This document shows, in pieces, positions 484-22,000 of a stretch of DNA of 23,018 nt (positions are counted from its first letter, which is position 1; each line of letters begins with the position of its first letter). Where the stretch lies: positions 1 through 23,018 of the IMG/VR virus record IMGVR_UViG_3300017788_000186. One strand, 5' to 3'. A program made the translations under genes and the position numbers. Source of the stretch: a virus. The notes below the pieces were generated by a model. That model was given only the letters and a program-made list of their open reading frames with translations. It did not search any database and was not told the DNA's origin.

Positions 484-488
484 CTCCT
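484..488 (-). promoter_or_regulatory. Ribosome binding site of the epimerase gene, overlapping the upstream stop
   Basis: AGGAG lies 7 bases before the ATG at 476. Its first two bases are the last two of the TAG stop (487-489) of the preceding gene, an arrangement that favours reinitiation by the terminating ribosome. Confidence 0.7.
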
Positions 489-5049: not shown

Positions 5050-5681
5050 CGCACTTCAAAATTTACTCTGTTAAAAATCTTAATATAATAAATGCTGATA
5101 TCTTGAGGCAATGTAGATCCGTCAAATTCAAATTCTGCATTTCCCGATTCATCAAAGTCTATAAGAGGTATTACAATTGGTGCTATTAATTTATTTGGAT
5201 CATTATAACTAGTAATATATAACCTTAATTTATAATCTGGATTACCTGTAAGAAGTTTTTTTACTTCGTCTTTTGCCGAATTAGATAGTAATCGACCAAG
5301 TATCTTCTTAGACTCTAACAGTATCGATATTCCAAAATCTAAATTTTCTAGATCTAATTCTTGTATCCATTCTATTCTAACAAAATTTCCATAATCATTA
5401 CTTTGTGCTTCATTATAAGAAATTTCTCTTTCTTTTATTTTAAGAGTTTCTTTATCAATTTCATATTGAAAAAGACCTTTAGCCTGAATTTCCTCAATTA
5501 AATGATGTTGATCTTCATCTAGTTTTTTAACTAATAGATTAGGAACAGGTATTCTATTTTTGTTATGATCTGGATTACTGGGGTGCAAACCTTTTAATCT
5601 GTAAGTAAATTGATCGTAAGATATATGCCAATCGGGTGTAGAATTTTTTATAAATTCTTCTAATTTTTCTTTAAATCCCAT
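5046..5681 (-). CDS. Unknown 211-residue protein inside the glycosyltransferase cluster
   Basis: I do not recognise a family. The protein is charged and soluble, without signal peptide or membrane helix. The N-terminal ~100 residues are mixed helical and hydrophilic (MGFKEKLEEFIKNS). Residues ~150-210 alternate hydrophobic and polar positions (YKLRLYITSYNDP, then IVIPLIDFDESGNAEFEFDG), suggesting a beta-sandwich. It starts at an ATG preceded by GAGGATAAAAG, a good ribosome site, and overlaps the upstream glycosyltransferase gene by 11 bases and the downstream one by 4. Sitting between two pairs of transferase-like genes in a coupled operon, it could be an accessory or acceptor-binding protein, but nothing in the sequence proves that. 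Confidence 0.6.
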   Translation of the reverse strand: MGFKEKLEEFIKNSTPDWHISYDQFTYRLKGLHPSNPDHNKNRIPVPNLLVKKLDEDQHHLIEEIQAKGLFQYEIDKETLKIKEREISYNEAQSNDYGNFVRIEWIQELDLENLDFGISILLESKKILGRLLSNSAKDEVKKLLTGNPDYKLRLYITSYNDPNKLIAPIVIPLIDFDESGNAEFEFDGSTLPQDISIYYIKIFNRVNFEVR

Positions 5682-6525
5682 CTTTTATCCTCTTTTTAAT
5701 TAATCTATTATAGGTATTAATTTCGTCGATGCCTACTAAACTTTTCTGAACATAATGAACTATATCTGTTTGTTCATAATTTCCTATTCGAAGATCGGCA
5801 TTCCTATCAAAATAAAAAGGTAAAACTTCTTGCCATTTTTCGGGTAATCCTAAACAATCTTGCACATTTGATTTCATATGTATAAATCTCGGAAATGGCA
5901 AATCAAAACTTATTTGATCTACAATCCCTAACATATCGGCAGCCAAACCAAATATTTCATCTGTTCCTAGTTTGCATCCATTATCTTTTTCTACAAAAGA
6001 ATTTCTGAATTCTTCTGGGTATTTAGTTATTAATTTTACCATCTCAAAAAAATCTTCTACTAAAAGATCATCTTTTTTAAAGAAAGTATAAGCAGAATAA
6101 AAATTAGGTAATTTATTTAAAGTTTGAAATTTTCTATAATAATCGTTAGTAACATTATCTCCTCTAAACGTTAGAGCATTTTTAGCCACATATAGGCAAG
6201 TTGAAGAAATTAATTTTTCGATCCAATGGCTGTAATCGTTCAAAAAAATCATATCGGCATCTAAACATACCGTAATATCCCAAGGAGTGATATCCCTCAT
6301 ATAAGATCTACCATCCCAATGTTTTTCCTTATTCCAAAAAATTACTCTATCAAACGCCCAGATATGATGTAAAATTGGCAACCAGGCTTCTGAATCTGTT
6401 GCTATTGCTACATTGTCATAACCAATCTTTTGAGTTTTTTTAATAGAAAGAGCCAAAAGGTGAGCCATGCGATGATAATTAGTAAAGGCAGATTCAGAAA
6501 CTACAATTAGATATCCAAATTTCAT
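5671..6525 (-). CDS. Putative GT-A glycosyltransferase (GT8-like)
   Basis: The 284-residue protein opens with a hydrophobic strand (KFGYLIVVS). It then has a predicted helix (HLLALSIKKTQ), the strand NVAIATDSE, and the metal-binding pair in VCLDADMIFLNDY (D89/D91). GTDEIFGLAADML (~187-199) supplies the later acidic position, and IVHYVQKS near residue 257 gives a histidine where GT8-type enzymes place a third metal ligand. This order (strand, helix, DxD, late acidic residue, C-terminal His) fits a retaining GT-A fold such as glycogenin or GT8. It overlaps the upstream paralogue by 4 bases (ATGA) and has GGAAG about 8 bases before the ATG. It is related in plan to the gene before it, so the two may act in sequence on one glycan. 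Confidence 0.65.
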   Translation of the reverse strand: MKFGYLIVVSESAFTNYHRMAHLLALSIKKTQKIGYDNVAIATDSEAWLPILHHIWAFDRVIFWNKEKHWDGRSYMRDITPWDITVCLDADMIFLNDYSHWIEKLISSTCLYVAKNALTFRGDNVTNDYYRKFQTLNKLPNFYSAYTFFKKDDLLVEDFFEMVKLITKYPEEFRNSFVEKDNGCKLGTDEIFGLAADMLGIVDQISFDLPFPRFIHMKSNVQDCLGLPEKWQEVLPFYFDRNADLRIGNYEQTDIVHYVQKSLVGIDEINTYNRLIKKRIKDGI

Positions 6526-7340
6526 AAAAATTCTTCCATGTTCTTCATGAGATCAGATTTGTTTAAAAAGTGGATATCGGTATTTCTGATTTCTAAAATT
6601 AAATTTTCCGGCTCAGTTAGTAAAAACTTAAGATAAGAATCTTTTTTCAGTTTTAAAATCTTTGCGGTGCTACGTAGAGTTTTAACACAGGGTAATCTAT
6701 AGATATTAATATTCATGTGGCCATTCATTATATGTTCGGCAATACTAAATGCTACATCATTACGATACATCCTGGAATCAAAAGAATATAAGTTAGAATA
6801 AAAAATATAATTTTCTTTGACAAATTCAACTAGGTTAAAAAATAATTTTGATTCTTGATTTCTTTTAAACATGATAGTTGTAGCCCATCTTAACGGTATG
6901 CTTATATCTGATACCATTACATCCCCTCGACCAAGAAAACTATCAGAAAAATAATCTACTCCGGCCGATATCATAAGACTCTGGTCCATGTCCCAGTATT
7001 GATTTAGCTTATCAGTAAAGATAAAATAGTCAGCATCAATTATTAACGTATGATCATATGGGGTGAGATCCCATGACGTAAATCTATTAAAATTTAAAAA
7101 CGATACTATCGAATTATCTAAAATTCTTTTATTTGTAGATTTAGGAATGTCGGATATTACAATATTATCAAAAGATTTTTTAAGTTCGTTAATATCATAT
7201 CTCGATATAGATTTTTCGTCAGATATTAAACTAACAGGCAATTTTAAATTTTTCGATGCTAATTTTGCCGATACTATTGAAAGTTTAACATAATCAATAT
7301 TTTCATTATTATGGGCAAAAATAATTATTCCTCTATTCAT
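6522..7340 (-). CDS. Putative GT-A glycosyltransferase (GT8-like)
   Basis: The 272 residues start MNRGIIIFAHNN, a first strand. LPVSLISDEKS follows, then TSWDLTPYDHTLIIDADYF with the DxD pair D102/D104. YRNDVAFSIAEHI (~190-202) and DIHFLNKSDL (about 255-264) provide the late acidic and histidine positions expected in a GT8-like fold. The phrase 'WDxTPxDxTxxxDAD' also occurs, more loosely, in the next gene (ITPWDITVCLDAD), supporting common ancestry. The first 8 bases overlap the end of the 118-residue gene (ATGAATAG), with only a weak ribosome site, so translation is probably coupled. Function as a sugar transferase is inferred from fold markers; the substrate is unknown. Confidence 0.6.
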   Translation of the reverse strand: MNRGIIIFAHNNENIDYVKLSIVSAKLASKNLKLPVSLISDEKSISRYDINELKKSFDNIVISDIPKSTNKRILDNSIVSFLNFNRFTSWDLTPYDHTLIIDADYFIFTDKLNQYWDMDQSLMISAGVDYFSDSFLGRGDVMVSDISIPLRWATTIMFKRNQESKLFFNLVEFVKENYIFYSNLYSFDSRMYRNDVAFSIAEHIMNGHMNINIYRLPCVKTLRSTAKILKLKKDSYLKFLLTEPENLILEIRNTDIHFLNKSDLMKNMEEFL

Positions 7341-7689
7341 AATCTTTTAAAAAATCTTTGATGTTTCTTTTTGATTTCAGTTTATTGCATTCTAACAGAT
7401 ATTCGTTTGATGTATAAAAATAAGTTTCAACGATATGGTCTTGAAATTTTTTAAGATCAGAAATTAGAATAGGATTTTGATTTATATCAAGAATAGGTAT
7501 ATTTTCTGTTCGACCTCTATCGACTAAAAATTGAACGAAAACTATTAAAGAATGATCAATCACAAAAAGACCACCCTCATATCCGATGGTCAATCCTGAC
7601 ATTAATTTATCTTTTAAAATTTTTTTTTGAATTTCTAAATTTTTTCTATAATTAGAAAATTCAAGAAATTGCTCAAGAGATGGTTCCAT
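7333..7689 (-). CDS. Small unknown protein, first gene after the late promoter
   Basis: I cannot name this 118-residue protein. It is mostly helical by composition (LEQFLEFSNYRKNLEIQKKI at the start; basic, Lys-rich end NKLKSKRNIKDFL). A short stretch, YEGGLFVIDHSLIVFVQFLV, looks like a beta hairpin followed by a helix rather than a membrane span. It begins at an ATG with GAGGT just upstream. A TATAAATA late promoter box lies 22 bases before its start codon, so it is probably the first gene of the modification operon. The following transferase gene overlaps its stop. Similar small proteins probably occur in marine T4-like phages, but I recall no function. Confidence 0.6.
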   Translation of the reverse strand: MEPSLEQFLEFSNYRKNLEIQKKILKDKLMSGLTIGYEGGLFVIDHSLIVFVQFLVDRGRTENIPILDINQNPILISDLKKFQDHIVETYFYTSNEYLLECNKLKSKRNIKDFLKDYE

Positions 7690-7741: not shown

Positions 7742-8752
7742 TTATCCGGCACTAAAAGAACCGTAAGAAGTGGTCGTAGGTATTGAAGAAACAACAATTC
7801 CATTGCTTCTAGAAATATCAACACTCGGTTCTACTGAAATTTTAACAAAGTCGCCATATCCGACTGCGCCAGCTCCACTACCACTGGGTTGACCTCCACT
7901 GTATCCAGAAGTAAGAACTATCCTAGCAGATACTCGGCTTGCAGATCCTAATTGTGCATTATTAGTGAAAACAAAAAACTTTACATTATTTACATTGGCA
8001 TAATTGCCATCTGTACTATTAACAGTAAAAACCGGAGGAGTAGTGGTGGTTACCGTAGTTCTGTGATTAGCGTAGAAAACCGATGCATTGACTCGTAAAT
8101 CAAAATTGGTGCTGGCAAAATTAATCATATCTCTCATATTTCGACTTTGTCTGCCCTGGGGACCTGCTAGATCTAAAGATTGGCTTTCAAAAAGAAACTT
8201 AAAAGAACCGCCGGCATTGAAAAACTGACAACATGTTGCCGCATTCGCAAAAGTGGCAGAATAGGTCCAAGTAGCAGAAGTAGAAAAATTAAGATTAAAA
8301 GTTTGAGACTCGTCCGGCGAAACAACATCCAATTCGCTAGGATCTGCCAAAAATCTATCAGTTTCTAAATTATCTATGATACCTTTATAATAATTGTATA
8401 CTTGTAATTTTATTTTGTCCGGTGCATATCTAGGATCATCTATAGAATTAACATCAAAGATATTATTAACGGTTGTCGTATCATCTTGTAACGTTAGATT
8501 ATCAGTTACCCAGAGAGCCCCCTTTTGATGAGATCTAGTTTTTATAATATCTAATCGAATATTATCCCATTCTGGATCATCTACTTTTGATGCTGCCGTT
8601 ACTGCCTGGGTTTGTAATAAAGATGTTCCATACCCATATTCATATCTATTTGGTCTTTCTGCAGATGTATAAAAATCAAAGCCGCTTTGTAGTACTGCAC
8701 CTAGTCTTTTTCTTAGATCAGAGTTAAAAGAATCCTGAGTTATTTTTGACAT
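7742..8752 (-). CDS. Virion structural protein, paralogue of the preceding gene
   Basis: The 336-residue protein shares its architecture with the 306-residue product just upstream. Common blocks are an N-terminal SFNSDLRKRL (8-17), EWDNIRLDIIKTRSHQKG (61-78), FFNAGGSF (177-184), AGPQG (196-200) and a glycine-rich GGQPSGSGAGAVGYGD segment (286-301). The rest is rich in Ser, Thr and Asn, typical of beta-structured phage tail proteins. Proteins with the 'FFNAGG...GPQG...SGSGAG.YGD' signature occur in marine T4-like phages, where they are annotated as structural (from memory). GAGGA lies about 7 bases before the ATG. The stop is followed by the largest gap in the window and a late promoter for the next operon. 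Place in the virion is unknown; position after the fibre genes suggests the tail tip or fibres. Confidence 0.65.
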   Translation of the reverse strand: MSKITQDSFNSDLRKRLGAVLQSGFDFYTSAERPNRYEYGYGTSLLQTQAVTAASKVDDPEWDNIRLDIIKTRSHQKGALWVTDNLTLQDDTTTVNNIFDVNSIDDPRYAPDKIKLQVYNYYKGIIDNLETDRFLADPSELDVVSPDESQTFNLNFSTSATWTYSATFANAATCCQFFNAGGSFKFLFESQSLDLAGPQGRQSRNMRDMINFASTNFDLRVNASVFYANHRTTVTTTTPPVFTVNSTDGNYANVNNVKFFVFTNNAQLGSASRVSARIVLTSGYSGGQPSGSGAGAVGYGDFVKISVEPSVDISRSNGIVVSSIPTTTSYGSFSAG

Positions 8753-8766
8753 TTACTTCCTCATAA

Positions 8767-9687
8767 TTAATATGTAATTGGCGCAACAGTGACTGACCAA
8801 TTTAACGGATACAAATAATTAGTGGGTAGGGGGGATACCACGGATAAGGCGCTTTGACGTTGTAAAATACTTATTCCCGCTAAAACTGATACCTGATCAC
8901 CATATCCAGCTGCACCAGCACCAGAACCCGACGGGGCCCCACCTTGATATATAGAATCTAATCTAACTTCAAGTATTAATTGATTAGCCAAAGATATATT
9001 TGACGAATTAATTGCCGATCTAAATCTAACCCTATTACCGGAATATATCGCATCTGCAGAACTTATCGGCGGAGTAAAATCTACATAATTAGAAGTAGAG
9101 GTCTTCCAGTTATCAAAACCAAAAAATTTTGTTCCCATCACAGATGCAAGAGTTACGAAATCTCTGGTCTGAGCTCCCTGAGGACCTGTTAATAAAGGGA
9201 TCAAATTTAAACTTAAAAGAAACCCGCCACCTGCATTAAAAAATTGATTGGCTTCTTGAGGCGTAGCCCAAGTAATAGTTGTCCTATGAAAGGCTTCGCC
9301 GCTAAAAGAAACATTTATATCTGGATTTACCAAAGTAGGAGGAATAACATCCTCATATTGGCCGATTGCCACCAGTGAGCTTTCTAATAAAGCTCTATCA
9401 GCTAATTGAACATATTTTTCTAAAATAGTAGCCGAAACAACGTCCGATTCACTGACATCTGGTAATTGTGATAATGTTGGTTGGATTCCGATTTGATGAA
9501 CTCTGGCCTTGATAATGTCTATTCGAAGATTATCCCATTGTGTGTCATCGATCAATGGATAAAGATTAGTAACAGGATCGAGCTCAATCGGAGAACTGGT
9601 GAGAGTATCGCCGTATTGATCCTCAATAACTTGCTTAATTTTATTTCTAATATTGTTATTAAAAGAACTGGCCGTTATGTCTGTCAC
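8767..9687 (-). CDS. Virion structural protein, GTG start
   Basis: This 306-residue protein carries the same blocks as its downstream paralogue: SSFNNNIRNKI (7-17), WDNLRIDIIKARVHQIG (51-67), FFNAGGGF (149-156), TGPQG (167-171) and GGAPSGSGAGAAGYGD (249-264). Identity is concentrated in these blocks and is low between them, so the duplication is old. The start is a GTG at 9687, chosen because AAGGT lies 7 bases upstream and the protein N-terminus then aligns with the paralogue. A role in the tail is inferred from neighbours and the beta-rich composition. No enzyme motif is visible. Confidence 0.65.
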   Translation of the reverse strand: MTDITASSFNNNIRNKIKQVIEDQYGDTLTSSPIELDPVTNLYPLIDDTQWDNLRIDIIKARVHQIGIQPTLSQLPDVSESDVVSATILEKYVQLADRALLESSLVAIGQYEDVIPPTLVNPDINVSFSGEAFHRTTITWATPQEANQFFNAGGGFLLSLNLIPLLTGPQGAQTRDFVTLASVMGTKFFGFDNWKTSTSNYVDFTPPISSADAIYSGNRVRFRSAINSSNISLANQLILEVRLDSIYQGGAPSGSGAGAAGYGDQVSVLAGISILQRQSALSVVSPLPTNYLYPLNWSVTVAPITY

Positions 9688-9700: not shown

Positions 9701-11560
9701 TTATAAAATTAAGCATTCAACGATTTTAATTCCGATGTCATCGTCAGTTTCTAGTGCGATCGCAAATACATCATTAGCATTTGGGACTGCCGCAACTGCT
9801 GTTCCGTCATTGCCTGCTATTAACTTCTGACCTTTCTTTACTGATCCTGTAACTTTACAAGGCACACGACCCTTTAATGCTATATATGTCCCGCCCTCCA
9901 ATTCACTGTTCATCATGAAAGCAGGGTTGGCAGAAACTACACCGATCGCACGTTGACCCCACTGGCATGCTTCGACTTCATAATCTCCGTGTTCACAAAT
10001 TGTAACTACAGTTCCAGTTTCATACTCCTCGTCTGCAAGATATTTCTCTGCTAAGTCAGCATAACGTGCCGCAGTAGCGGTACCATTCATAATATTAACA
10101 TTAATATCTCCATTACTGTCTCTAGATACTATAGATGTTTTATCACCACTAGCAGGAACCGTAATTGATGCAGCTACATAAGTTATTCCGACTTTAGTAG
10201 TATCGGTTTTTTCAGAGATTCCTTTAAAAACCCTGGCAGTAATATCTCCATTGGCATCTCTTGCCGCGATTGTATTATTCAATGATCCACCAACAGGTGC
10301 AACTGTTCTGGCCAATCTTTTCTCACCATCATCAACAATCAATGACCCTGCTGATCCCGACACATCACCAGATAAACTTCCTACTACAGTAACTGGGGTT
10401 TGACTTGAACCTACAGAACCGGCAAAGAATCCAGTGAATGTCTTGGTTTGTGCATCATATGCTGTGGTTCCATCGTTAGCAACAATAGATCCAAAAAATT
10501 GATTAGTAGCCGCATTTAATAGTGTTTTAGTTCCCAGACTATTAATAACATTACCTTGTAAATTAGAAAATACCGTGGTAGAATAGATATTTCTATATTT
10601 GCTATCGCTCTTACCTATATCAAACACCGGAATCGTAGTACCGGTTGGAATGTTCGGAAAGAATCCATCTTTGTAGATAATAATCGGATCTCTATCAATA
10701 GTAACATCTTTAATCCTGAGCGTAATAGTTCCAGTGTCTTGAGTTAAACCTTGAGAGTTCTGGATAATTGGAAATTGTCCGCCTTCGACATAAATTCTTA
10801 GAGGTTTAATGCCCGGAAATCCAACTTCAAAACCGTCATATGAAAATGTTACCGGAGTTGTAAAACTGGCCTGATTAGATTTAATGTATTCAGATGCTGC
10901 AACTCCCCCCAACCTATCTGCGTCTGCGGCTGTTCCCCAAAATCTCCAATTAAGAGCAGTAACCCCTGTTATTGAATTGGCCTCTGGTAAAGTGATCCCT
11001 TTCTTAATTTCATTGAAGCCAGCAATCGGATTCGTAGTCGAATCTAATTTAAATGCTGCTTTGCTTATTACTGCTACTGTTTCGTCTGCAACTAATACTT
11101 TTACAATCGCATAGTTTGTACCACCTTCAGCGGTAACTACAACCGCACTAAAAGTTGACGCCCCAAACCCCGGTGCCGTTTGTGGGCCAACTAATATAAA
11201 TTCTGTTCCTGTCCAACAATTTAGTTGATTAGTGCTAGTATTGAACCAAAACTCGCCTTGCTGTAGACCAGTTGGTGCAGTTGCACCAATTTCGGCACCT
11301 CCTGCAGCCTTAAAAATACTTCCATCAAAATATCTAAGACGTTTTTTACCGCTATCGTACCAAATTTGCCCTGTTATTCTTTTTGGCGGCGGTGTTGTAT
11401 TGGCAAAATTTTCTAAAAGATGCAAGAAATTTTCGTTTTGCACCTCGCCGTATCCGGCATAATTTTTACCAACAAATCTTAGATCTGTTGTACTGTCAAT
11501 CGTACCGTCTGGTACATTGGTTAAAAAAGTTCCATTAAATCTGTCTACTTGATATGGCAT
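9701..11560 (-). CDS. Tail fibre protein with shared anchor module and peptidase-G2-like C-terminus
   Basis: The 619 residues begin with the anchor module shared by four genes here: GKNYAGYGEVQNENFLHLLE (31-50), GQIWYDS (64-70), a second GEFWFNTSTNQL (102-113) and LVGP (123-126). The middle has short fibre repeats such as LAR..AP.GG..NNTIAARDANGDI and SIVSRDSNGDI. The last ~120 residues start ARYADLAEKYLADEEYETGT and contain IGVVSANPAFMMNS and ALKGRVPCKVTG. That order (YADLAE, then a GVVS-P block, then a G-RVP-KV block) resembles the peptidase G2 / IMC-type self-cleaving domains found at phage fibre C-termini. A good GGAG lies about 8 bases before the ATG, and an AATAAATA late-promoter-like box lies 19 bases upstream. 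It likely acts as a receptor-binding fibre; self-cleavage is possible but no catalytic residues could be confirmed. Confidence 0.75.
   Translation of the reverse strand: MPYQVDRFNGTFLTNVPDGTIDSTTDLRFVGKNYAGYGEVQNENFLHLLENFANTTPPPKRITGQIWYDSGKKRLRYFDGSIFKAAGGAEIGATAPTGLQQGEFWFNTSTNQLNCWTGTEFILVGPQTAPGFGASTFSAVVVTAEGGTNYAIVKVLVADETVAVISKAAFKLDSTTNPIAGFNEIKKGITLPEANSITGVTALNWRFWGTAADADRLGGVAASEYIKSNQASFTTPVTFSYDGFEVGFPGIKPLRIYVEGGQFPIIQNSQGLTQDTGTITLRIKDVTIDRDPIIIYKDGFFPNIPTGTTIPVFDIGKSDSKYRNIYSTTVFSNLQGNVINSLGTKTLLNAATNQFFGSIVANDGTTAYDAQTKTFTGFFAGSVGSSQTPVTVVGSLSGDVSGSAGSLIVDDGEKRLARTVAPVGGSLNNTIAARDANGDITARVFKGISEKTDTTKVGITYVAASITVPASGDKTSIVSRDSNGDINVNIMNGTATAARYADLAEKYLADEEYETGTVVTICEHGDYEVEACQWGQRAIGVVSANPAFMMNSELEGGTYIALKGRVPCKVTGSVKKGQKLIAGNDGTAVAAVPNANDVFAIALETDDDIGIKIVECLIL
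11398..11470 (-). repeat. Anchor-module DNA repeat, copy in the fourth fibre gene
   Basis: This encodes the conserved GYGE..ENF.HLLENF part of the shared N-terminal module. Positions 11398-11419 are identical over 22 bases to 16108-16129, and 11405-11422 are identical over 18 bases to 14226-14243. Confidence 0.7.
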
Positions 11561-11579
11561 AATTTGGGCTCCGATATTA

Positions 11580-11587
11580 TATTTATT
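11580..11587 (-). promoter_or_regulatory. Candidate late promoter box AATAAATA
   Basis: One mismatch to TATAAATA, within the 33-base gap before the fourth fibre gene and 19 bases from its ATG. The AATAAATATAA context also occurs at 19079-19089 in the same position relative to a gene start. Confidence 0.45.
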
Positions 11588-11593
11588 TTAGAT

Positions 11594-12070
11594 TTACAAT
11601 AGATTTACGCCGCGTTTTGCCCGCTTAATTGCTTCTTCCTCGTCTTCGCTGATCCAATGGAAAGCTTCAGAATTTTGAAAACTAGATACTTTTTGTTGAT
11701 ATATTGCTCGTTGAGTATCTAGAAAATTTATCATTTCGTTAAAAGCATCGGTTTTTATTACAGTTTCGTTGGCTCTCAAAACATCTATAATTATATTCAA
11801 TTGCTTATGAATAGGGTATTGATCTAAAATCTTTACATTAGCACCGTATTTCACCACACTTTCAGTGATCACTGGCTTTATGTTGTAGTTACGAATTTCC
11901 CACTGACTGTAATCACCGTGAAAGTATTCCCCGGATTCCTCATCGATTTCAATATCGAGAATATTAAACTGAGTAAGGTCCATAAAATTAGTCGGAGTTT
12001 TATTGGTTATTTCCCCGATGAGTACTCCTGTAGATTTTAAAAATAATAATCTTCTGTTTTCTTTAGCCAT
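11594..12070 (-). CDS. Small protein between fibre genes, possible fibre assembly factor
   Basis: The 158-residue protein is not confidently recognised. Its N-terminal half is beta-like (RRLLFLKSTGVLIGEI, then FNILDIEIDEESGEYFHGDY). The second half contains ILDQYPIHKQLNIIIDVL, a pattern reminiscent of the 'YP..KQ.N' helix in phage tail fibre assembly chaperones, and ends with a charged helix (SEDEEEAIKRAKRG). The ATG directly abuts the stop of the dioxygenase gene (TAA then ATG), with a GGGGA about 7 bases upstream. Its position between fibre genes fits a chaperone or assembly role, but this rests on one motif and context. Confidence 0.5.
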   Translation of the reverse strand: MAKENRRLLFLKSTGVLIGEITNKTPTNFMDLTQFNILDIEIDEESGEYFHGDYSQWEIRNYNIKPVITESVVKYGANVKILDQYPIHKQLNIIIDVLRANETVIKTDAFNEMINFLDTQRAIYQQKVSSFQNSEAFHWISEDEEEAIKRAKRGVNLL

Positions 12071-12568
12071 TTATAATCCCCAATAAAGAACTAAACTGTA
12101 TTTAGGTCTTTCATTATCATCTATTTTTGTAACTTCATGTTCTATGTGCAAGGGCATATCTAACATCATTCCGGGTTTTTCCTCAATTAAATTTTCAACA
12201 TTATTTTCGTCATACCATACAAAATGATTTTTGTCAGATCTTAAAAAAATTAATTGAAACTTCCAATACAATCCCTGACTGTCTCTATGTCTTAAAAGAT
12301 AATCTCCCGGATCATATCTATTAATTACAAATTCACCTCTCTCATTCTTAGAGTAAGGTAATGTTCTCCAAACTGCTTCTTGCAACTTTTCACTAGCATT
12401 ATAATAAAATAAACTTTTTAAACTACTACTTCCATATTTTGTTTCAAAATTGTCTAGTCTTCCCTGTTGTCTTATTGAAAATTTGTCGCTTTCATTTTCT
12501 GCTAATTCAATAATCTCATTGTAATTAGACAAATAATTATCGATTGTTTTTATATTATCCTTGTACAT
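12071..12568 (-). CDS. 2-oxoglutarate/Fe(II)-dependent dioxygenase
   Basis: This 165-residue protein shows the complete facial triad and cosubstrate site of the superfamily. HRD at H94/D96 follows the strand INRYDPGDYLLR. The distal histidine is H144 in LHIEHEVTKI. R154 lies ten residues on, in NERPKYSLVLYWG, where the 2-oxoglutarate carboxylate is bound. The length matches a compact prolyl-4-hydroxylase-like catalytic core with no extra domain. Such enzymes hydroxylate protein side chains or small molecules using O2 and 2-oxoglutarate. The start codon lies inside the fibre gene upstream (14-base overlap), and the stop abuts the next ATG, so it is translated together with fibre genes. A fibre residue is therefore an attractive but unproven substrate. 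Confidence 0.88.
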   Translation of the reverse strand: MYKDNIKTIDNYLSNYNEIIELAENESDKFSIRQQGRLDNFETKYGSSSLKSLFYYNASEKLQEAVWRTLPYSKNERGEFVINRYDPGDYLLRHRDSQGLYWKFQLIFLRSDKNHFVWYDENNVENLIEEKPGMMLDMPLHIEHEVTKIDDNERPKYSLVLYWGL

Positions 12569-14381
12569 ATTGCCAACTGGATCTGGTGCTGTTAACCTGA
12601 TAAATTAAATCATTATTTCTTGACGGATTATCGACAGTGGTTGTTACCTCAGTTCCCGTTAAAAAGGATCTTCCAATGAATCTTCCAGTAGTCGATGCAG
12701 CCACCGATGATACGTTCTGTATAGTAGATGCAATTCTACATAATGTTCCTGCAGCAAATTGACTAGGGGGTGCCAACGTGTTTAATAATTCTACGACCGA
12801 ACCCGGGCCTCCCTGTGCAGTTTCATTTAATCCCTTTGTATCCAGACTAAAAAAAATCGGAGGAATTAAATCTTCCACCGATTTAGTTTTGTAATCAACA
12901 TATTCTTTAGTAGCTGCATGGAACGGCTGAGTCGGTCTAGCATGTAAGGTTAAAAAACCTGATAACTGACCTCCTGTTACTGGAAACTTTGAATCATCAA
13001 ATACCGTAATATTGACGGTTCCGTTAAAAGGTATACCATTTATATTCCTAGAAGTCTGTAATCTCGTTGCGGTGGCTGCGTTACCATTTAAATTTGCAGT
13101 GATCTCACTGGCTACAAAATTTCCTTGTGCGTCTCTTGCTACTAAATGCAATGGTTGATTCGTTGAATCAGCTTTGATATTCCAAGTTTCGGCAAACGCC
13201 CCAACATATGGATCGCCCGGCTGACCGCCACTTTTAATTGGTACTATATAGTTTCCCGCAAATAAACCTGCATTCGAATTTGCACTAATAACTATATTTT
13301 GTGTTCCATCAAATGATACACCATTAATAGTTCTCGAAACTAAAAGTTTTGAGGCAGTCTGTGCGTTTCCACTTATGTTACCTGTGACATCTCCAATAAA
13401 TGTTGCATTATTACCGGTATTGCCGCTGTCTAATACCTTAACTCCATTAGAAGAAAATATGTCGCCTGTGAGATTTCCTGTAAGATCACCATTGAAGGTG
13501 GCTGTAATTTCACCTGCAGAAAATCCACCTGTGCTATCCCTAGCTACTAGCTTACCGGTAATATTGCTAGAACTAGCATCTACACTCCATAGAACATCCT
13601 GTGTTCCATTAAATGATAGACTATTTCCTACTAAATGAGTACCTCGTGAAATTGAAAAGTTTAAAGAGGCCGGAACTGTGATATCTGCTGTTCCATCAAA
13701 GTTAACTCCATTAATTTTTCTAGGAACAAATAATTTTAATGCAGAAGCTGCAGTGCCATCTAATGCTCCGGTAATATCTGCTGTAGTAGCTAGAGTAATT
13801 CCTTTAGTAAGTTCGGAAAAATTAGGAATTGCATCGGCGGGCCCTATTGTAAAAATATCATTGGATATAATCGCTATAACAACACCATCAATAATCAATT
13901 GAGATATAGCATGAAAGTTTCCATTGAGATCTCTAATTTTTCTCGAGACTAGTCGAGTTGTACCAAACGGCGGATCAACTGCCTCTGGACCGATTATTTT
14001 CCAACCAGCCTGAGAATACGGACTAGTTCCGTCATAAACGAACAATTGATTTGTGGTACTTTTAAACCAAAAATCTCCAATAGACGGAGTAGAGGGAGAA
14101 ATTTCGCTAACTGATGCCGAAGATATCGGACCCCAATCAACGCCGTCATAGACATTTAAAATATTTTTTGAAGAATCAAACCAAATTTGACCCTTTATCG
14201 GAGTCGGTGGAGGACCCCCTGAAGAAAAATTTTCTAAAAGATGTATAAAATTTTCATTCTGAATTTCTCCATATCCGGCATAATTTCTTCCTACTAGTTT
14301 AAGACTTGTAGTAGTATCTATCCTTCCGTCTTCTAGAACTACTAATGCCGTTCCGTCCCATTTGTTAATTTGGTATGCCAT
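12555..14381 (-). CDS. Tail fibre protein with repeated INGV-FDGT motifs
   Basis: The 608 residues start with the shared anchor module: GRNYAGYGEIQNENFIHLLE (31-50), GQIWFDSSKN (64-73), GDFWFKSTTNQLFVYDG (102-118), IIGP (129-132). The shaft has three copies of a fibre repeat of the form L...R.INGV.F.GT..I (about residues 216-235, 346-364 and 441-459), separated by LTGNLTGD and NISGNAQTA type links. Residues 488-608 form a C-terminal module (ATKEYVDY, then a ~100-residue tail with FAAGTLCRIAS and SSWQYVQG) that is also present at the end of the preceding fibre protein. The final codons overlap the dioxygenase gene by 14 bases. AAGGA lies 7 bases before the ATG. It is probably a trimeric fibre or baseplate-attached adhesin. 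Confidence 0.75.
   Translation of the reverse strand: MAYQINKWDGTALVVLEDGRIDTTTSLKLVGRNYAGYGEIQNENFIHLLENFSSGGPPPTPIKGQIWFDSSKNILNVYDGVDWGPISSASVSEISPSTPSIGDFWFKSTTNQLFVYDGTSPYSQAGWKIIGPEAVDPPFGTTRLVSRKIRDLNGNFHAISQLIIDGVVIAIISNDIFTIGPADAIPNFSELTKGITLATTADITGALDGTAASALKLFVPRKINGVNFDGTADITVPASLNFSISRGTHLVGNSLSFNGTQDVLWSVDASSSNITGKLVARDSTGGFSAGEITATFNGDLTGNLTGDIFSSNGVKVLDSGNTGNNATFIGDVTGNISGNAQTASKLLVSRTINGVSFDGTQNIVISANSNAGLFAGNYIVPIKSGGQPGDPYVGAFAETWNIKADSTNQPLHLVARDAQGNFVASEITANLNGNAATATRLQTSRNINGIPFNGTVNITVFDDSKFPVTGGQLSGFLTLHARPTQPFHAATKEYVDYKTKSVEDLIPPIFFSLDTKGLNETAQGGPGSVVELLNTLAPPSQFAAGTLCRIASTIQNVSSVAASTTGRFIGRSFLTGTEVTTTVDNPSRNNDLIYQVNSTRSSWQYVQG
14220..14290 (-). repeat. Anchor-module DNA repeat, copy in the third fibre gene
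   Basis: Same coding block as the repeats at 11398-11470, 16106-16180 and 18265-18330; 14226-14243 matches 11405-11422 exactly. The segment encoding 'YAGYGE' is also nearly identical between these two copies. Confidence 0.65.
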
Positions 14382-14392
14382 TTCCTATTCCT

Positions 14393-16273
14393 TTACGGTT
14401 GTATCTGCCACGATCCCGATTCTAGGATGAAAGTTTTTACAACTCTTGTTATAATAATATCCGAATTTGGTATTGTAATCGGTGAGAATGAAATTTGACC
14501 GATTGCGCTGCCGAACGAAGTGGGACTAACATTTGTTACTACTGTTGTATATGAGGAAGTAAAATTAACTCCTTCTGTTATAGTAAGAGATTCATTTGTG
14601 TTAGTATAATAACTACACAACAATCTTAACACAGTTCCAGGTTGATGTTCAATTGGAAGAAACAATTGATTCAATATAGTCGATATTGCAGCATTGGTTA
14701 ATTGAGATCCCGGAGATGATGGGTCAGAAATATCCATACTAAATGCTAATGGGGCATTCTGAATCGCATAATCGACATATGCCTTCGGTACAGCGTCATT
14801 AGGCTGATTCGGACTTTCTACCTGTCGAGTTATTGCATTATAAACAAATTTTAAATCCTTAATTTCTCTACTACTAACTCTGATATTTCCCGAACCCGAA
14901 GGATTGAACACTAGGTCGGTATTAGTAAATCTTGTAGAAATTTCATTGTCATTAATAAAAATATCATCGACCGTGAAGTCAGTAAATGTGCCAAAAGATG
15001 TTAATCCCGGAGCACTAGTTATCTGAGAACCTAGCGATGTGCCATCAATAACTTTTATTCCATTAATTTTAAATGAGGGTGTTGGCTCACTTGCAGACGA
15101 TTCGAGATTGATACTTTCGGAGCTATTCCATGCTCTTGATGCATTGGTCCATATAAATGTGTGATCCTCTGTTCCCTTAAGGATTATTCCTCCACCGTCG
15201 GCATTAGAATTATTCTGAACGGGTCCTTTGGCTAATTCTATATTTTTGTCTTCAACATTTAAAACTGTAGTATTTAAAGTAACTGTATCTCCCAGTATTG
15301 TTAAATCTCCATTAACAAGTAAACTACCGCCTATTCGAGTTAAACTAGTAGGTACATTCTCAAATATATCAATAGTATCAGTATCACTTCTTGCATTAAT
15401 AACAGTTCTTAACTCAATGTCATTTTTATTTAAAACAAATAAAAGACCTTTAGCTCTGTCATAATTTCCAATAGTTAGATCACCAACCTGATTAATTTTT
15501 ATACTTGCTTGATTTGAAACTCCAAATGTATATCCATCGTTAGAGCTACTTGTTATAGAACCAATCATCGAAACTGCTGGAATATCTGTTCTCACAAATG
15601 ATGTAATTGGTTGATTAAATAGTTTTTCAGAGTTACTAACAGTTACATCAAATTTCACATCATAGGTAGGATCGGTCTCAAACCCCGGAAATTTTCCTGT
15701 GTTAAAACCAATATTAACATCTAGATCTCTCGGATATCCCACTATTTCATTCAATGGGCGGAATTTAGTATTACTAAAAATTCCTAAGAGCGATCCCCCA
15801 ACATACAAAAGAGCGATTGTTTGATCTCTACCTTGACTATCCTTTACTGTCTCAATTATAAATCCGCTCTTTCTTTGAAGTTTACTGTAAGCAGGGCTTA
15901 ACAGAACAGTCGATGTTCCAGTGTAGAAAAATAATTGATCTTTGCTTGTATCATACCATAGATCACCGGATCCCAACCCTAATGGCTGCACAGGGGTAAT
16001 AGCTGCAGAACCAACTGCTTTGAATTCGTTTCCAGTATAAACCTTTATTCTTAATTCTGATGTATCAAACCATAGTTGCCCAGCGATAGGTCTGGCTGGT
16101 CGAACACTATTGGCAAAATTTTCTAAAAGTTTAACAAAATTTTCGTTTAAGGATTCTCCAAAACCGCTGTAATTTTTACCTATAAGTGTGATCGACGAAC
16201 TTAATTGATCTATCTGTCCGTCCGGAACTGTTGCTAGAATATTTCCGTTTGTTTTATTAACAATATATGCCAT
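14393..16273 (-). CDS. Tail fibre protein with shared anchor and C-terminal modules
   Basis: This 626-residue protein has the anchor module GKNYSGFGESLNENFVKLLE (32-51), GQLWFDTS (65-72), GDLWYDTSKDQLFFYTG (103-119). A shaft segment of the type common in marine phage fibres follows: GGSLLVNGDLTILGDTVTL (315-333), then TTVLNVEDKNIELAKG (335-350), which resembles trimeric fibre connector repeats. IRVSSREIKDLKF and AVPKAYVDYAIQ (495-505) lead into a C-terminal ~120-residue module related to that of the next fibre protein (GTVLRLLCSYY and SGSWQIQP against GTLCRIAS and SSWQYVQG). AAGGT lies about 8 bases before the ATG. It is likely a second receptor-binding or structural fibre; its exact place in the virion is unknown. 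Confidence 0.7.
   Translation of the reverse strand: MAYIVNKTNGNILATVPDGQIDQLSSSITLIGKNYSGFGESLNENFVKLLENFANSVRPARPIAGQLWFDTSELRIKVYTGNEFKAVGSAAITPVQPLGLGSGDLWYDTSKDQLFFYTGTSTVLLSPAYSKLQRKSGFIIETVKDSQGRDQTIALLYVGGSLLGIFSNTKFRPLNEIVGYPRDLDVNIGFNTGKFPGFETDPTYDVKFDVTVSNSEKLFNQPITSFVRTDIPAVSMIGSITSSSNDGYTFGVSNQASIKINQVGDLTIGNYDRAKGLLFVLNKNDIELRTVINARSDTDTIDIFENVPTSLTRIGGSLLVNGDLTILGDTVTLNTTVLNVEDKNIELAKGPVQNNSNADGGGIILKGTEDHTFIWTNASRAWNSSESINLESSASEPTPSFKINGIKVIDGTSLGSQITSAPGLTSFGTFTDFTVDDIFINDNEISTRFTNTDLVFNPSGSGNIRVSSREIKDLKFVYNAITRQVESPNQPNDAVPKAYVDYAIQNAPLAFSMDISDPSSPGSQLTNAAISTILNQLFLPIEHQPGTVLRLLCSYYTNTNESLTITEGVNFTSSYTTVVTNVSPTSFGSAIGQISFSPITIPNSDIIITRVVKTFILESGSWQIQP
16106..16180 (-). repeat. 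Anchor-module DNA repeat, copy in the second fibre gene
   Basis: Positions 16108-16129 are identical over 22 bases to 11398-11419, although the intervening fibre genes differ widely. The repeat encodes the ENF.KLLENFAN segment. Confidence 0.7.
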
Positions 16274-16284
16274 TTTGTTATACC

Positions 16285-18429
16285 TTATGCTCTAAACGAT
16301 GCATCAAAAAAATCATTACCAAATCTAATGATATAATTTACAGTCTGATAAGGATTCATAATGGAGAATGGTTGACTAAGTGTTGCTGAAGATTGATCAG
16401 AAATATTTCCAGAACTGGGCAAACTTGCCAACTGACCAGCAACAGGAATACCACCCGATCGAGAAGTTGCGCCGACATCAATTGGAGTCGCAGTTGTAGA
16501 ATTTACCGCATAATATTGTTCACCCGGAGATCCGTCTGGCCTCGTTCCACGTAAATTATGCTGGTGTTGAGGAAGATTGCCTACATTCAACGTGTAACTG
16601 GCATCGCCAGAACTTCCTCCCACTGTCGACGCTGCACTACCTAATACTCGATTAGCTGATCCTCCGCCGGCTGATGCACTGGTCGAGGCAATCGTCGCTC
16701 CATTACTCATATTGTCGGCGCCTAGAGGAAATCTACCTCTGAAATCTGGAAGTTTAAAATAAAGATTAAGTTCACTTCCGGCTCGCCATTGATAATTGGG
16801 AGGAACGAATTTGTCTGTAACAACTTCATATAAATCAGCATATCTATTTCGAAGAACCTCTGCACCATCACATAGCAAATATCCCGGCGGAGCTACCGCA
16901 CCTGCAAACGGCAATATAGTACCAATAGGAACAGCCAACGGCCCTACAAAATCATCTCTAGTCATCCTTCCCAGTCTTTGTGCTGCTGTAGATCTAGGAA
17001 TGTAAACCAATACAGAAGTATCAAAAGCAGATCGGACTATCGACGGCTGATCTGCGATAAGGGCATTACCGTTTAATTCTGTATCAAATACTTTAATCGG
17101 TGTGTTTGACGATCCGTCAAACACGACGTCGTCTGTCAAGGTTATTGCACCAGTAAATCTAAAAGTGGTCGAAGTTCTTAATGAATTTGCAGTGTCTGCG
17201 TTACCGGATATGTTACCAGTAAATGCTCCGTCAAACTCCTGAGCAACTATCTTTTTAGCATAAATTTCATTAAATCGATTATTTGTTGCACTACCAATAT
17301 TAAAACTGTCAGTAATAGAAGGTAAAATATTTTTAGCAACAATATTTCCTTGAGCCTCTAATCCTCCCCCAACTATAAGTTTCTTTTTAATAGCGGCACC
17401 ACCTGTAACTTGTAAAGCACCACTGTTTAAATTGACTGACTCTAAATCACTAGTTAAAAATAATGAACCAGAAATCTTAGCATTACCTGTAACTTCTAAT
17501 GATTCTGTAGGAGCTAAAGTGTTGACTCCCACACGATCATTTATAACTCTAAGAACAGTCGAGGGTAAACTTAATTTCGATGTCTGGATGTCAATACTAG
17601 CTCCGGGCAAAGAATTATAAATTCTAGCACCAGATGTACCGTTAGCGATGTTTAATGTACTATCGGCGCCGACTGTTATACCTAAATCTGTTCTTACATT
17701 AAATTGAAAATCTGTTGTATTAATTGTATCAGATCTTAAAAATCTAGAAGCAGCCACATCTGCATTATTAATTCTTAATGCTTCAGATGATGATGAAACT
17801 CCTATAAGCCTCGTTGGAAATCCAGTCACAAAAGTCGACGTTGTTATGTTGATACCGGGTCTTATTCCTTGTTCAACAAATCCTTGTATATTTGACTTAG
17901 GATAAAATTGATCCTTACTAATAATAATAATCGGTTCATCATCGACATAAAAAGTTACGACTGTACGATCTTCGTTATTTTGATCTACTAAGGTTTCAAC
18001 TATCGGACCGGTCCTTTTTCCGTCGACAGTACTTACATAAGGTCCAACTAGGACCCATGACGATCCAGAATAAATCGATAGCTGTTGTTTGCTGGTATCT
18101 ACCCAAAGATCTCCCTTTCTACTTGAACCTAATTCAGGTCTTTCTACACCGGTTTGAATATTGGAAGCAGCCTTCCAATCGATACTGTCCCATATTTTTA
18201 ATTGCTCAGTAGTTGTGTCATACCATAATTGCCCCTCAACAGGATTTACCGGTCTGTTCGGACCAGAAAAATTTTCCAGAAGATGTAAAAAATTTTCAGC
18301 AATTATTTTTCCATATCCTGTAACATTTCTTCCGGGAAATCTCAAACTGGTATCATCATTCGGAACATTATCATAGACTGTAATCGGTACCTTACGATCT
18401 TTTTCTGTAAAATTTACGGTATATGGCAT
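16285..18429 (-). CDS. Tail fibre/adhesin with phage tail collar domain
   Basis: The 714-residue protein starts with the shared anchor module: GRNVTGYGKIIAENFLHLLE (33-52), GQLWYDTTTEQLKIW (66-80), GDLWVDTSKQQLSIYSG (106-122), VLVGP (126-130). A shaft follows with VGVNTLAPTESLEVTGNAKI (300-319) and FNIGSATNNRFNEIYAK (376-392), both typical fibre repeats. Residues ~500-570 are a classic tail collar domain: PIGTILPFAGAVAPPGYLLC, DGAEVLRNRYADLY and LPDFRGRFPLGAD. The end has NLPQHQHNL (618-626), an HxH metal-site-like motif, and NPYQTVNYIIRFG (692-704). This domain set is that of T4 gp12-type short tail fibres and related host-adhesion proteins. The ATG lies two bases after the previous stop, with GAGG just upstream. 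Confidence 0.88.
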   Translation of the reverse strand: MPYTVNFTEKDRKVPITVYDNVPNDDTSLRFPGRNVTGYGKIIAENFLHLLENFSGPNRPVNPVEGQLWYDTTTEQLKIWDSIDWKAASNIQTGVERPELGSSRKGDLWVDTSKQQLSIYSGSSWVLVGPYVSTVDGKRTGPIVETLVDQNNEDRTVVTFYVDDEPIIIISKDQFYPKSNIQGFVEQGIRPGINITTSTFVTGFPTRLIGVSSSSEALRINNADVAASRFLRSDTINTTDFQFNVRTDLGITVGADSTLNIANGTSGARIYNSLPGASIDIQTSKLSLPSTVLRVINDRVGVNTLAPTESLEVTGNAKISGSLFLTSDLESVNLNSGALQVTGGAAIKKKLIVGGGLEAQGNIVAKNILPSITDSFNIGSATNNRFNEIYAKKIVAQEFDGAFTGNISGNADTANSLRTSTTFRFTGAITLTDDVVFDGSSNTPIKVFDTELNGNALIADQPSIVRSAFDTSVLVYIPRSTAAQRLGRMTRDDFVGPLAVPIGTILPFAGAVAPPGYLLCDGAEVLRNRYADLYEVVTDKFVPPNYQWRAGSELNLYFKLPDFRGRFPLGADNMSNGATIASTSASAGGGSANRVLGSAASTVGGSSGDASYTLNVGNLPQHQHNLRGTRPDGSPGEQYYAVNSTTATPIDVGATSRSGGIPVAGQLASLPSSGNISDQSSATLSQPFSIMNPYQTVNYIIRFGNDFFDASFRA
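18265..18330 (-). repeat. Anchor-module DNA repeat, copy in the collar-fibre gene
   Basis: Encodes GYGK..AENFLHLLENF. It is the most diverged of the four copies at DNA level but keeps the aaaattttc / agaagatg pattern. Confidence 0.5.
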
Positions 18430-18431
18430 TT

Positions 18432-19064
18432 TTATACCTCACTGAAGCCAGTTAGGCTTTGTACGCGAATTGTATAATCAATTTGCATTAATCTGTTCAA
18501 CGATTTTTGAACCGGATGAAAAATTACATGAGTTAACAATTTGCCATTCCCCGAAGGATCATAACTTTTTAATCCTAATTCATCAAAAATAAAATTTCCA
18601 TCCATTGTTTGGCTGTTATCAAATGCTTCTTGACCTGCAGGTTCTCCATAATCCAAAAAACAAGTAATAACAATATCTGAATAGGTTGCACCGCTGATAT
18701 GTCTAACCTCCATTTTGTTCCTTACTGGATCTAAATTTTCTTTAGAATTTTGATCCACTATTTTTTGGTAGGTTTGATTATAAAGGCTACTATTTGTTCC
18801 TACAGTATTGGGAGTCAGATATGTTATCAAACCTGTAGGATCTACAGTTGTTCCGCCGGTTCCAAAGACCATTTGATAAACTGTCCCTCTACCCTGGGAT
18901 GACAAACTCTGAGCCAATGCGATGCTCATGTTTTCGTAATGGATCGCATTTCTTCTATTTTGAAATATCTCTCCAGATTCCGGGTCCCAAATCTTAATAT
19001 GTCCTTCGACGTGAAACCCCATTGTTTCGTTTGGTTTTTTCATAGGCTCTTGATCGCTTTGCAT
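18432..19064 (-). CDS. Virion structural protein of marine T4-like phages
   Basis: This 210-residue protein has the recognisable run MGFHVEGHIKIWDPESGEI, then RRNAIHYENMSIALAQSL, then VYQMVFGTGGTTVDPTG. I recall this pattern from structural proteins of marine T4-like phages, encoded near tail fibre genes. It has no enzyme motif and no signal peptide. It sits between the very large structural protein and the collar fibre. A candidate late promoter (AATAAATA) overlaps the upstream stop, 17 bases from this ATG. The ribosome site is weak (AGAG); an internal Met at residue 8 is possible but less favoured. Role in the virion, perhaps in fibre attachment, is inferred from order. Confidence 0.65.
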   Translation of the reverse strand: MQSDQEPMKKPNETMGFHVEGHIKIWDPESGEIFQNRRNAIHYENMSIALAQSLSSQGRGTVYQMVFGTGGTTVDPTGLITYLTPNTVGTNSSLYNQTYQKIVDQNSKENLDPVRNKMEVRHISGATYSDIVITCFLDYGEPAGQEAFDNSQTMDGNFIFDELGLKSYDPSGNGKLLTHVIFHPVQKSLNRLMQIDYTIRVQSLTGFSEV

Positions 19065-19081: not shown

Positions 19082-19089
19082 TATTTATT
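19082..19089 (-). promoter_or_regulatory. Candidate late promoter box AATAAATA
   Basis: One mismatch from TATAAATA, overlapping the stop of the large structural gene and 17 bases from the next ATG. Same context (AATAAATATAA) as the box at 11580-11587. Confidence 0.45.
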
Positions 19090-22000
19090 CTGGTAATTTT
19101 GTGCGCTTATTTCTTAAAAAGTTAGAAATAACGGAATTATCATCTATTAATGATTTTCCCGACGATGCTGTTACTATGCCCGGTGAATAGAAGATTCTTC
19201 CAGATTTACCGATAACAACAATTTTAGATCCCGCAGGAACTGGTCTAGTTATTCGAATATATGGCGTAGTGCCGTTAACAGAAAATTCAGCTTCAACATC
19301 TTCGTCAGCTGCAGGACTAGATACAGCCAAATCCTCATTGTAAACTTTAATAGGATCTTTTCTTAATCGAATTCCATTAATAAAAACTTCATACTCATCA
19401 CATGGTCCGTATATTTCGGGTATTGTAGACTTAAACCAGTTAGATCTAACAGATTTTTTAGGAATTTTGTTTATCGGCCCAATCAATAAAGTACTTCCAT
19501 CGCTGATAAATTCCTGCTTTTCTTGATATTCTCTGTATGGCAAAGATTCGGTATTACTAGAATTAATAACATCACTGCCTAATTTGTGCAAAGTAGCTAT
19601 CGCTGTACCAAATATTCCTCTAGTTATTTGTCCCAATACATTACCATTTTTAGAATAATATTCTATTTTTTCATTATTAATAATAAGTTGTCCGGGAACT
19701 CTATTAATAATATCTGGCTCAATAAGTGAAGATGCATTGTTAACAACTACTTCAGTATCATAATAATTTAAATCTTTTGCTAATTTAATTTCCCCTAGAG
19801 AATATCTCTTATATTGAACCGAATTTAACATATCTTTAAAAATTTCATAAGCAATTGGTTCTTGATATGAATCTCTACCAAATAAAATTAATGTAATAGT
19901 ATCATTAGGATTTGTAGAATCTGTTAATGTTAAAAAATCAAAATTTCTATTAATATCATAATCGACTCCCGGAGTTAATCTATTACCATTTTTATAAACC
20001 CAGACTGAAGAAAAATCTTCTACCTGCCTCCTTAAAGGAAATACTCCTCTATTTCCCGGAAATCTGTCTTTGATCAATGACAATATAGGATATTCGCTGA
20101 ACCATGTAATTATTATCTTATCATTAGGATTTAAAATTAATGCATTAACAAATCTTATATTATTTTCTTCAATTACATATGCTACATCTTTTTCGAGTTC
20201 GACTCTTATTTGATCTCCAAATTTTAAATAAGTTGGGTCGATAGTTAATTCGTTATTAACTCCGTTAAATGTCCATTGGCCAATAAAATCTAACAGTTGT
20301 TCATTTACCCAAACTTTCACAAAATTTACATCGATGTTACCAGGGTTGTACGGTGGATCTTGACCGATTATAATGTTGTTATTTGATCCGTTATATTCTA
20401 CAAAAAGAGTATCAGCAGAATCTAAAAGTTTGCCATTGAGCTCTACTATCATATTGCCGACAGCCGAGCTTCTTTCAAGATTTACAAATCCATCTAAATT
20501 ATAAGTTCTGGTACTACCGTCATAAATTATTTCCTGCTGATTAACTCTAACAGCACTTTCGCTCGTGCTATCTGATTCTATAGAATCACCAAGAACAAGA
20601 ATTTTAATAGCGTCCTTAAATCTCGGAGGAACTCCAAACTCTATTAGAGTATTATCTTTATCATTTAATAAACCTTTGGAAGAAACAAACACTCCGGGAA
20701 CTTCTATTCCATTGTTTGTTACAATTACGGATTTTGTATCTGCGAATCTTGCTCTAGTTAAAAATAATCTTGTTGTTCCATCGCCAACAAATTCTTCATA
20801 GTCGAGAATTTGATAACCGCCGGGACCAATAGTTACTATTTCTAAAGTTTGCTCGGCGATAGGAACAGAACGAAATTCTATTCTCTCATCTGCAAGATTT
20901 AACCAATAATTACCGTCAGTACCGTATTGATCTAAACTCTGAATTTGTTTTGTTTTATCTAGATAAACAATAACAGACTTAGCTTCCAGTACATTCCTTC
21001 CGATCGGATAATATCTCCTTATACCATCTGTTCTGTAGATTTTGCTTCTTACTTGAGATGGACCGGTTGTTACTCTCTGAAAAACCTTAATAGAGACAGA
21101 ATCTAATATTTGACCAGGTACATTTTCTTCCGGAGCAGGTACCTGAACAGGACTCATAAATTTATCCCCCATGATCACTATTTCATCTGCTGTTTTTCCA
21201 GAAGCTGTAGAATATATACTATTAATATTTGAAAGATTTCCGCCAGATATATTAGTATCTTGTACGTTTAGATCAGAAATCGATAAAGATCCGTCGCTGT
21301 CAGATGGTCGAAATATTAATATATCGCCTGCCTGAGTATGCAAAATCGTAGGCAGATCGATTTCTTTAGTTATGCCATTACCTATAAATGTGTTCATTAC
21401 TGCAGCCGGTTCTGGAATCGATCTTCCATTCGGCTGGATTGTTGAACCGTCATAACTGTCATAATAGGGATCATCAATCCTTGTAAATTTACCTGTTCTA
21501 TCAGGTAAAGTAGAATAATCCCCTCTCTTGATGTAAACATTTATGGCCTGGCCGATTACTGGTGTAAAAGGAAGGGTTACGCTTGTTGTACTACCATCAG
21601 CAATAACATAGTAATCGGAATTTGGAGAGATACTATCCCAACTATCACTAAACCACGGAAGAGCATCCCACCCCCCTGTTGAATTAAAAGAACTACCCTG
21701 TATCAGCACTCCCCCAAAATCTAAACCCGTCATTAACTGTCTAGGATCTTTTCCAATCATACCGGTATCTGCATGATAAAATTTATTAATCCTATCAATA
21801 GCGTCTAAGATAGTTTCATTCTTATCATATGCAAGTTGAATAACAGATTTTTCTTTTGGTAGATTTTTAAATAAAATTCGTCCCTTTAATTCAGTAAAAT
21901 CTGATATTTTTTCATTATAGAGTTCTATTTCATATTCGCTCGACAAAATTAAATCATTATTGATTTTAATCTCAATTTTAGATTTGTCCTTGGTAGAAGG

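Follow-up and report, generated by a model that had tools for sequence, protein, structure and literature searches.

The 23-kb virus record analysed here (23,018 nt, "the window" below) carries an array of four fibre-like open reading frames (ORFs), F1 to F4, all on the minus strand, each of which begins with a related module of some 180 residues that we call the anchor. We favour, at a probability of roughly 0.6, the reading that F1 to F4 are four co-existing fibres of the baseplate region with slot-specific docking, and that slot 3 holds an exchangeable receptor binder accompanied by helpers cognate to its tip. The four would be trimers mounted in the baseplate region of a jumbo myovirus of the RaK2 kind, and each would dock through the version of an old module that belongs to its slot; in this module an N-terminal arm bearing the LLENF helix would be followed by trimerising beta repeats. 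Slots 1, 2 and 4 would be conserved appendages, and F3 would be the receptor-binding fibre whose tip is replaced together with its cognate helpers, here the genes gD and gC.

Paralogous fibres in fixed slots

The proteins F1 (slot 1, 714 residues, 16285-18429), F2 (slot 2, 626 residues, 14393-16273), F3 (slot 3, 608 residues, 12555-14381) and F4 (slot 4, 619 residues, 9701-11560) are paralogues. Their anchors, at residues 1-180 of F1 (17890-18429), 1-181 of F2 (15731-16273), 1-177 of F3 (13851-14381) and 1-179 of F4 (11024-11560), align by BLAST in all six pairs with E values of 3e-27 to 3e-45, and the first 200 residues score 104-153 bits pairwise against at most 25 bits in 200 shuffles per pair, which excludes chance similarity. 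The motifs that a first-pass annotation of the window had reported as common to the four (GYGE..ENF..LLENF and two GQ(L/I)W(Y/F)D / GD(L/F)W blocks) are present in each, with the variants GYGK in F1, GFGE in F2 and GEFW in the second block of F4. The same annotation had taken 9701-18429 to be four fibre genes with different distal ends. The four fibres are indeed there, although two non-fibre genes on the minus strand, gD (165 residues, 12071-12568) and gC (158 residues, 11594-12070), lie between F3 and F4, and the C-terminal domains of F2 and F3 are weakly similar to each other (29% over 72 residues, E 2e-4). The collar end proposed for F1 is firm, with residues 503-568 (16726-16923, minus strand) matching the Pfam phage tail collar domain at 8.5e-12; among the four fibres this domain occurs in F1 only, and a Gp10_C match reached 16.4 bits against a cut-off of 27. 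The peptidase-G2-like end of F4 (9704-10213, minus strand) is borderline, at 19.9 bits for the whole protein and 25.2 bits for the last 170 residues with a cut-off of 25; this family (PF11962) is matched at E <= 0.01 by 18 of 25 scanned members (F4, slot 4 and the type B tips described below). Pfam searches found no depolymerase domain in the array proteins.

Searches with tblastn matched 51 phage records with the F2 protein and 72 with the F1 anchor (E <= 0.01), mostly jumbo phages (PA5oct-like phages, RaK2, CBB, GAP32, 121Q, Atu_ph07, XacN1 and RAS14); a DNA-level search of phage records gave no match. A scan of viral contigs confirmed at least 578 relatives, and the best 80, with three further loci (L005-L007), make up the 83 loci examined. 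The cluster is bounded on both sides in 50 of them: 30 have four anchors, 16 have three, 3 have five, and 1 has six, one pair of which looks like a split gene. In these complete clusters the usual order is a giant protein (g6), g5, the fibre slots, and then gA/gB or the genes behind gA/gB. Strong anchor matches are confined to one cluster each in seven large contigs searched whole, with one further weak match at profile positions 92-144 only. The isolates encode different numbers of anchored proteins, from one in RaK2 and one in CBB to five in two clusters in PA5oct and six in tandem in both XacN1 and RAS14; Atu_ph07 has one at its fibre locus and a partial repeat match elsewhere. RaK2 gp065 and CBB_231 have a homologous anchor core with a phrog_11259 gene adjoining, which places the array in the RaK2-like anchor family.

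We selected 28 sources and placed their 99 anchors in a quick maximum-likelihood tree, on which the 13 slot groups require 13 changes, where the minimum is 12 and the shuffled mean is 69.7. Support is partly lacking for the deep branches that separate slots, and slot 3 sequences are scattered among a number of short branches. Loci with five fibres have two genes between slot 2 and the last slot, with tips of types A and C (see below), and both of these are of slot 3 type. The anchors are old, specialised paralogues, not interchangeable copies, and the fact that they group by slot, with the slot order preserved from phage to phage, favours a specialised position for each over a single common dock. 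The first-pass idea of a single anchor module thus holds for the origin of the anchors, but a distinct version has been maintained in each slot, and four fibres docked by the same anchor do not agree with this pattern.

Exchange of the slot 3 tip

We compared tips in 28 of the 31 four-fibre loci, leaving out two near-duplicates and L035, which has a short slot 4. Median identity over the last 200 residues is 0.56, 0.41, 0.20 and 0.56 for slots 1 to 4 (0.12-0.13 when shuffled), and the pairs of loci with tip identity below 0.25 yet anchor identity above 0.4 number 0, 0, 221 and 26 of 378. In slots 1, 2 and 4 conservation reaches the C-terminus; slot 3 tips are hypervariable. F3 carries INGV-type repeats, and its tip, of type C, lies in about the last 110 residues.

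Apart from three singles, the tips of slot 3 can be sorted into types A (14 genes), B (13), C (6, including the window) and D (3), and what lies behind the slot 3 gene follows the type: Tfa-like sequence in 14/14 type A genes, a gap of less than 50 bases in 13/13 type B genes, and gD plus gC in 9/9 genes of types C and D. Tip type therefore matches cargo in all 36 typed genes (the three single-type loci being left out), and none of 100,000 permutations was as good, in a test that ignores the relatedness of the loci. The slot 1 tree requires at least 10 changes of tip type, as does the slot 2 tree, so repeated exchange has not broken the linkage; in slot 1 the window (type C) shares 71% identity with L008 (type A). 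Loci outside those that define the types have the expected cargo in 4/4 type A genes and in the 1/1 type D gene.

Several observations count against a simple rule of tip and cargo. Neither gD nor gC accompanies 29 genes that match type C weakly, at E values of about 1e-8 to 8e-6; these are slot 2 genes by position and size, so a distant relative of the tip manages without the two genes. The type A genes of L008 and L041 have no called Tfa ORF, although tblastn finds Tfa-like sequence in the gaps. Finally, 9 of 71 anchored fibres upstream of gD, from a second scan described below, match neither tip profile C nor D. The type B tip shows a relationship to the Peptidase_G2-like end of slot 4 itself, and a built-in chaperone would explain why no helper is needed. 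At L031 (7733-8347), the same place behind slot 3 is taken by a different 2-oxoglutarate (2OG) oxygenase-like protein (phrog_2297), with a sub-threshold Pfam match to 2OG-FeII_Oxy_2.

Slot 3 is likely the host-choosing fibre, because its tip alone keeps swapping in the relatives, along with matching helper genes. The suggestion that an array of this kind could bind several receptors was too broad, as slot 3 is the only one whose tip turns over in the way that a determinant of host range should.

The second scan, with four gD query sequences, confirmed 86 relatives, of which 80 were retrieved, some on contigs shared with the first scan; the gD loci include near-copies, with 48 distinct tips among 77. 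The 2OG-Fe(II) dioxygenase-like gD is followed in 80/80 loci by gC (phrog_13209), its constant partner, and the ORF upstream of gD is an anchored fibre in 71/71 complete cases, being cut or missing at the edge in the other 9. Residues H94, D96, H144 and K156 of gD are kept in 81/81 aligned sequences. We take the first three to be the HxD...H iron triad and K156 to be the basic residue for 2-oxoglutarate; a lysine in that role presumably resembles the arrangement in collagen prolyl hydroxylase. Although gD stays below the cut-off of 27 bits for Pfam 2OG-FeII_Oxy_3 (PF13640), at 14.6 bits in the window and 17.1 bits in the L020 homologue, the full conservation of these iron and 2-oxoglutarate residues makes it look like a working enzyme of the 2OG dioxygenase type.

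We propose that gC is a fibre assembly helper, and gC and gD together may serve the maturation of the F3 tip. A conserved proline in 38 of the 48 distinct gD-linked tips is a lead only; a correlation computed on these tips covered 30 of the distinct ones, and its p-value takes no account of common descent. Tentatively, gD might be a prolyl-hydroxylase-like 2OG dioxygenase that hydroxylates the slot 3 tip, gC being its partner in assembly; one tip class would then have an enzyme of its own, inherited and swapped along with it, although we would sooner bet against this than for it. Our searches of the available literature turned up no report of a phage tail fibre hydroxylase or a tip-linked dioxygenase, and cyanophage 2OG oxygenases are treated, in the available portion of PMC9602691, as metabolic genes whose functions were not specifically investigated. 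For one group of phage 2OG dioxygenases, genes usually assigned to metabolism, the array offers a function that can be put to the test.

Proposed docking at the baseplate and its alternatives

In G001, the closest relative, the array stands directly behind gp5-, gp25- and gp6-like baseplate genes, the genes before it matching a gp5-like hub/lysozyme, GPW_gp25, a gp6-type wedge family (phrog_10646, phrog_219) and a protein of 4631 residues. In the window, F1 is preceded by g5 (210 residues, 18432-19064, minus strand; phrog_11259), the conserved anchor neighbour in RaK2-like jumbo phages and environmental relatives and a candidate dock or wedge protein, and by g6 (19085-23017, minus strand), the C-terminal 1310 residues of the giant structural protein. 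The 4631-residue protein beside g5 in G001 (L091:1264-15156) carries a CBM_5_12 carbohydrate-binding module and an FG-GAP repeat.

This arrangement recalls the T4 block 5-6-7-8-9-10-11-12, with a hub, a gp6-type wedge, a large protein, a smaller protein and genes for four trimeric peripheral proteins; F1, moreover, has a collar domain. It differs in that the four array genes are clear paralogues and in that a gp25-like gene lies inside the array-side block. The array may operate as the T4 block does without being classed as a member of it. We also considered the anchor as a homologue of T4 gp10, as the GYGE..NENF..LLENF helix resembles the gp10 N-terminus by eye, and dropped the idea: hhalign gave anchor A4 a probability of at most 1% against T4 gp9-gp12, and in an ungapped profile scan the best case, the gp10 N-terminus, was equalled by 14 of 300 shuffles.

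Five anchored paralogues of PA5oct (gp358, gp359, gp316, gp317 and gp318) are marked "ESI-MS/MS" in its record, which we take to mean virion proteomics, so that several paralogues in one virion are annotated in a relative. Three anchored proteins, all so marked, form the second PA5oct cluster (L095:13425-18923), far from the first. The available text of PMC5259590 lists, in virion mass spectrometry of CBB, CBB_231 (the anchored protein) with 12 peptides and 53% coverage and CBB_230 (g5) with 2 peptides. The first-pass picture of a phage with several fibres stands to the extent that the shared N-terminal module occurs on several co-encoded virion proteins, judging from the PA5oct record, the CBB mass spectrometry and the baseplate-gene neighbourhood.

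An AlphaFold2 model of the anchor (106 sequences; predicted local distance difference test (pLDDT) 88, predicted template-modelling score (pTM) 0.57) shows a helix spanning residues 38-53; the GQLWYD and GDLW motifs fall in beta repeats, after which comes a three-stranded sheet. Residues 54-87 superpose on CBA120 TSP3 585-622 at 0.8 A over 34 residues with a low Z of 3.0, and residues 88-129 resemble collagen XV/XVIII trimerisation domains and Mtd at Z about 4, also low. Residues 1-75 are the part kept in RaK2 and CBB. The beta repeats would be the trimerising parts and residues 1-75 the docking part. Neither g5 alone nor gD matched solved structures by sequence.

A number of points weigh against four co-existing fibres docked at the baseplate. 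RaK2 and CBB need just one anchored gene, and g5 was not found in the examined stretches of XacN1 and RAS14. The fold matches of the anchor are weak (best Z 4.2), the anchor and the g5 profile each found chance matches only among solved structures by sequence, the g5 model (pLDDT 54) is too poor to use, and the docking partner is a candidate at best. Neither the anchor nor g5 has detectable homology to any T4 protein from gp6 to gp13. A Pfam search of five large contigs found no sheath match, so the case for a contractile tail rests on wedge and hub homology; Baseplate_J likewise had no match in five large contigs. The permutation test, as said, takes no account of relatedness. XacN1, in the accessible part of PMC5852040, is described without tail fibre homologues or visible fibres; its genome nonetheless encodes six tandem anchored ORFs (L090:4522-13575).

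Other arrangements of the four fibres have to be weighed. One fibre, F1 for example, might dock to the wedge with the others stacked on it or on each other. Slot-specific anchors would suit different partners, there are precedents in T4 gp10-gp11-gp12 and in CBA120 TSP1-4 (the latter from the consulted section of PMC8825819), and Foldseek returned rows to CBA120 TSP4-N, weak ones with a best E of 0.3. Against this, Pfam, PHROGs and a sequence search of the PDB gave no gp10-like XD domain, sequence searches gave no TSP head domain D1 either, and the anchor core is kept where a single gene exists, in RaK2 and CBB, so that it has a partner other than a paralogue. We consider such layering possible, if somewhat doubtful.

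It is less probable still that the fibres are whiskers attached along the sheath of the tail or at its collar. Whiskers are seen along the tail of phAPEC6 (PMC7247149) and, as far as the available part of PMC5259590 goes, of CBB, and the anchored gene of CBB and the second cluster of PA5oct adjoin genes annotated as tail sheath or sheath stabiliser. Yet in the window's lineage the array directly adjoins genes for baseplate wedge and hub, and CBB's sole anchored protein, at 368 residues, is short for the 119 nm hairs given in that same part of PMC5259590. Least probable of all is that the four compete for one dock, with one mounted per virion or chosen by expression: a common anchor family with changing tips in one slot would fit, but slot-specific descent in a fixed order, the lack of turnover in three of the four slots and the five "ESI-MS/MS" paralogues of PA5oct all speak against it, though no search aimed at inversion or switching elements was made.

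Known systems and the genes behind the array

Tandem fibres, shared N-terminal domains and the joint exchange of tip and chaperone are already known. Like the array, CBA120 TSP1-4 and RaK2 gp526-534 place several receptor-binding proteins with related N-terminal domains on one adsorption apparatus (portions of PMC8825819 and PMC10253068), although those proteins share D1/XD domains and mostly have depolymerase bodies, whereas the array has another anchor. RaK2 gp065, CBB_231 and PA5oct gp316-318 and gp358-359 have the same anchor core, and RaK2, CBB, Atu_ph07 and the gp358-359 cluster of PA5oct the same g5 neighbour; however, RaK2 and CBB have one copy and PA5oct has two clusters, as against three to five slots in one array in the window's lineage. 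In the Tfa-type modules of Alteromonas phages A5 and V22, tip and helper are also exchanged together (part of PMC10579305), and type A tips of array-bearing relatives have a Tfa-like helper as well. Types C and D differ in carrying a 2OG dioxygenase-like gene and gC, and of all the slots in the fixed array just one takes part in exchange.

Searches of the available literature showed no report of slot-wise organisation or of paralogous fibre arrays in jumbo phages. The array is real and widespread, a multi-fibre set in which labour is divided between fixed slots and one exchangeable slot. It lets jumbo-phage genes that lacked annotation be read as a map of host range, with fixed slots, one exchangeable slot and helpers that predict tip type; it supplies fibre candidates for XacN1, a phage described without fibres, and a place to look for the host range of uncultured giant phages.

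Behind F4, the genes gA (8767-9687) and gB (7742-8752), both on the minus strand, form a paralogous pair (28.8% identity, E 1e-28 by BLAST) that closes the array in many relatives; the two (7742-9687 together) have glycine-rich ends and differ in number among relatives. A 118-residue protein without a Pfam match (7333-7689) follows the array in most relatives. Further on, glycosyltransferase-like and radical SAM genes are clustered at 487-7340; their order is largely kept in many relatives, and the cluster might modify virion proteins; in Atu_ph07, radical SAM genes likewise lie behind the anchored fibre.

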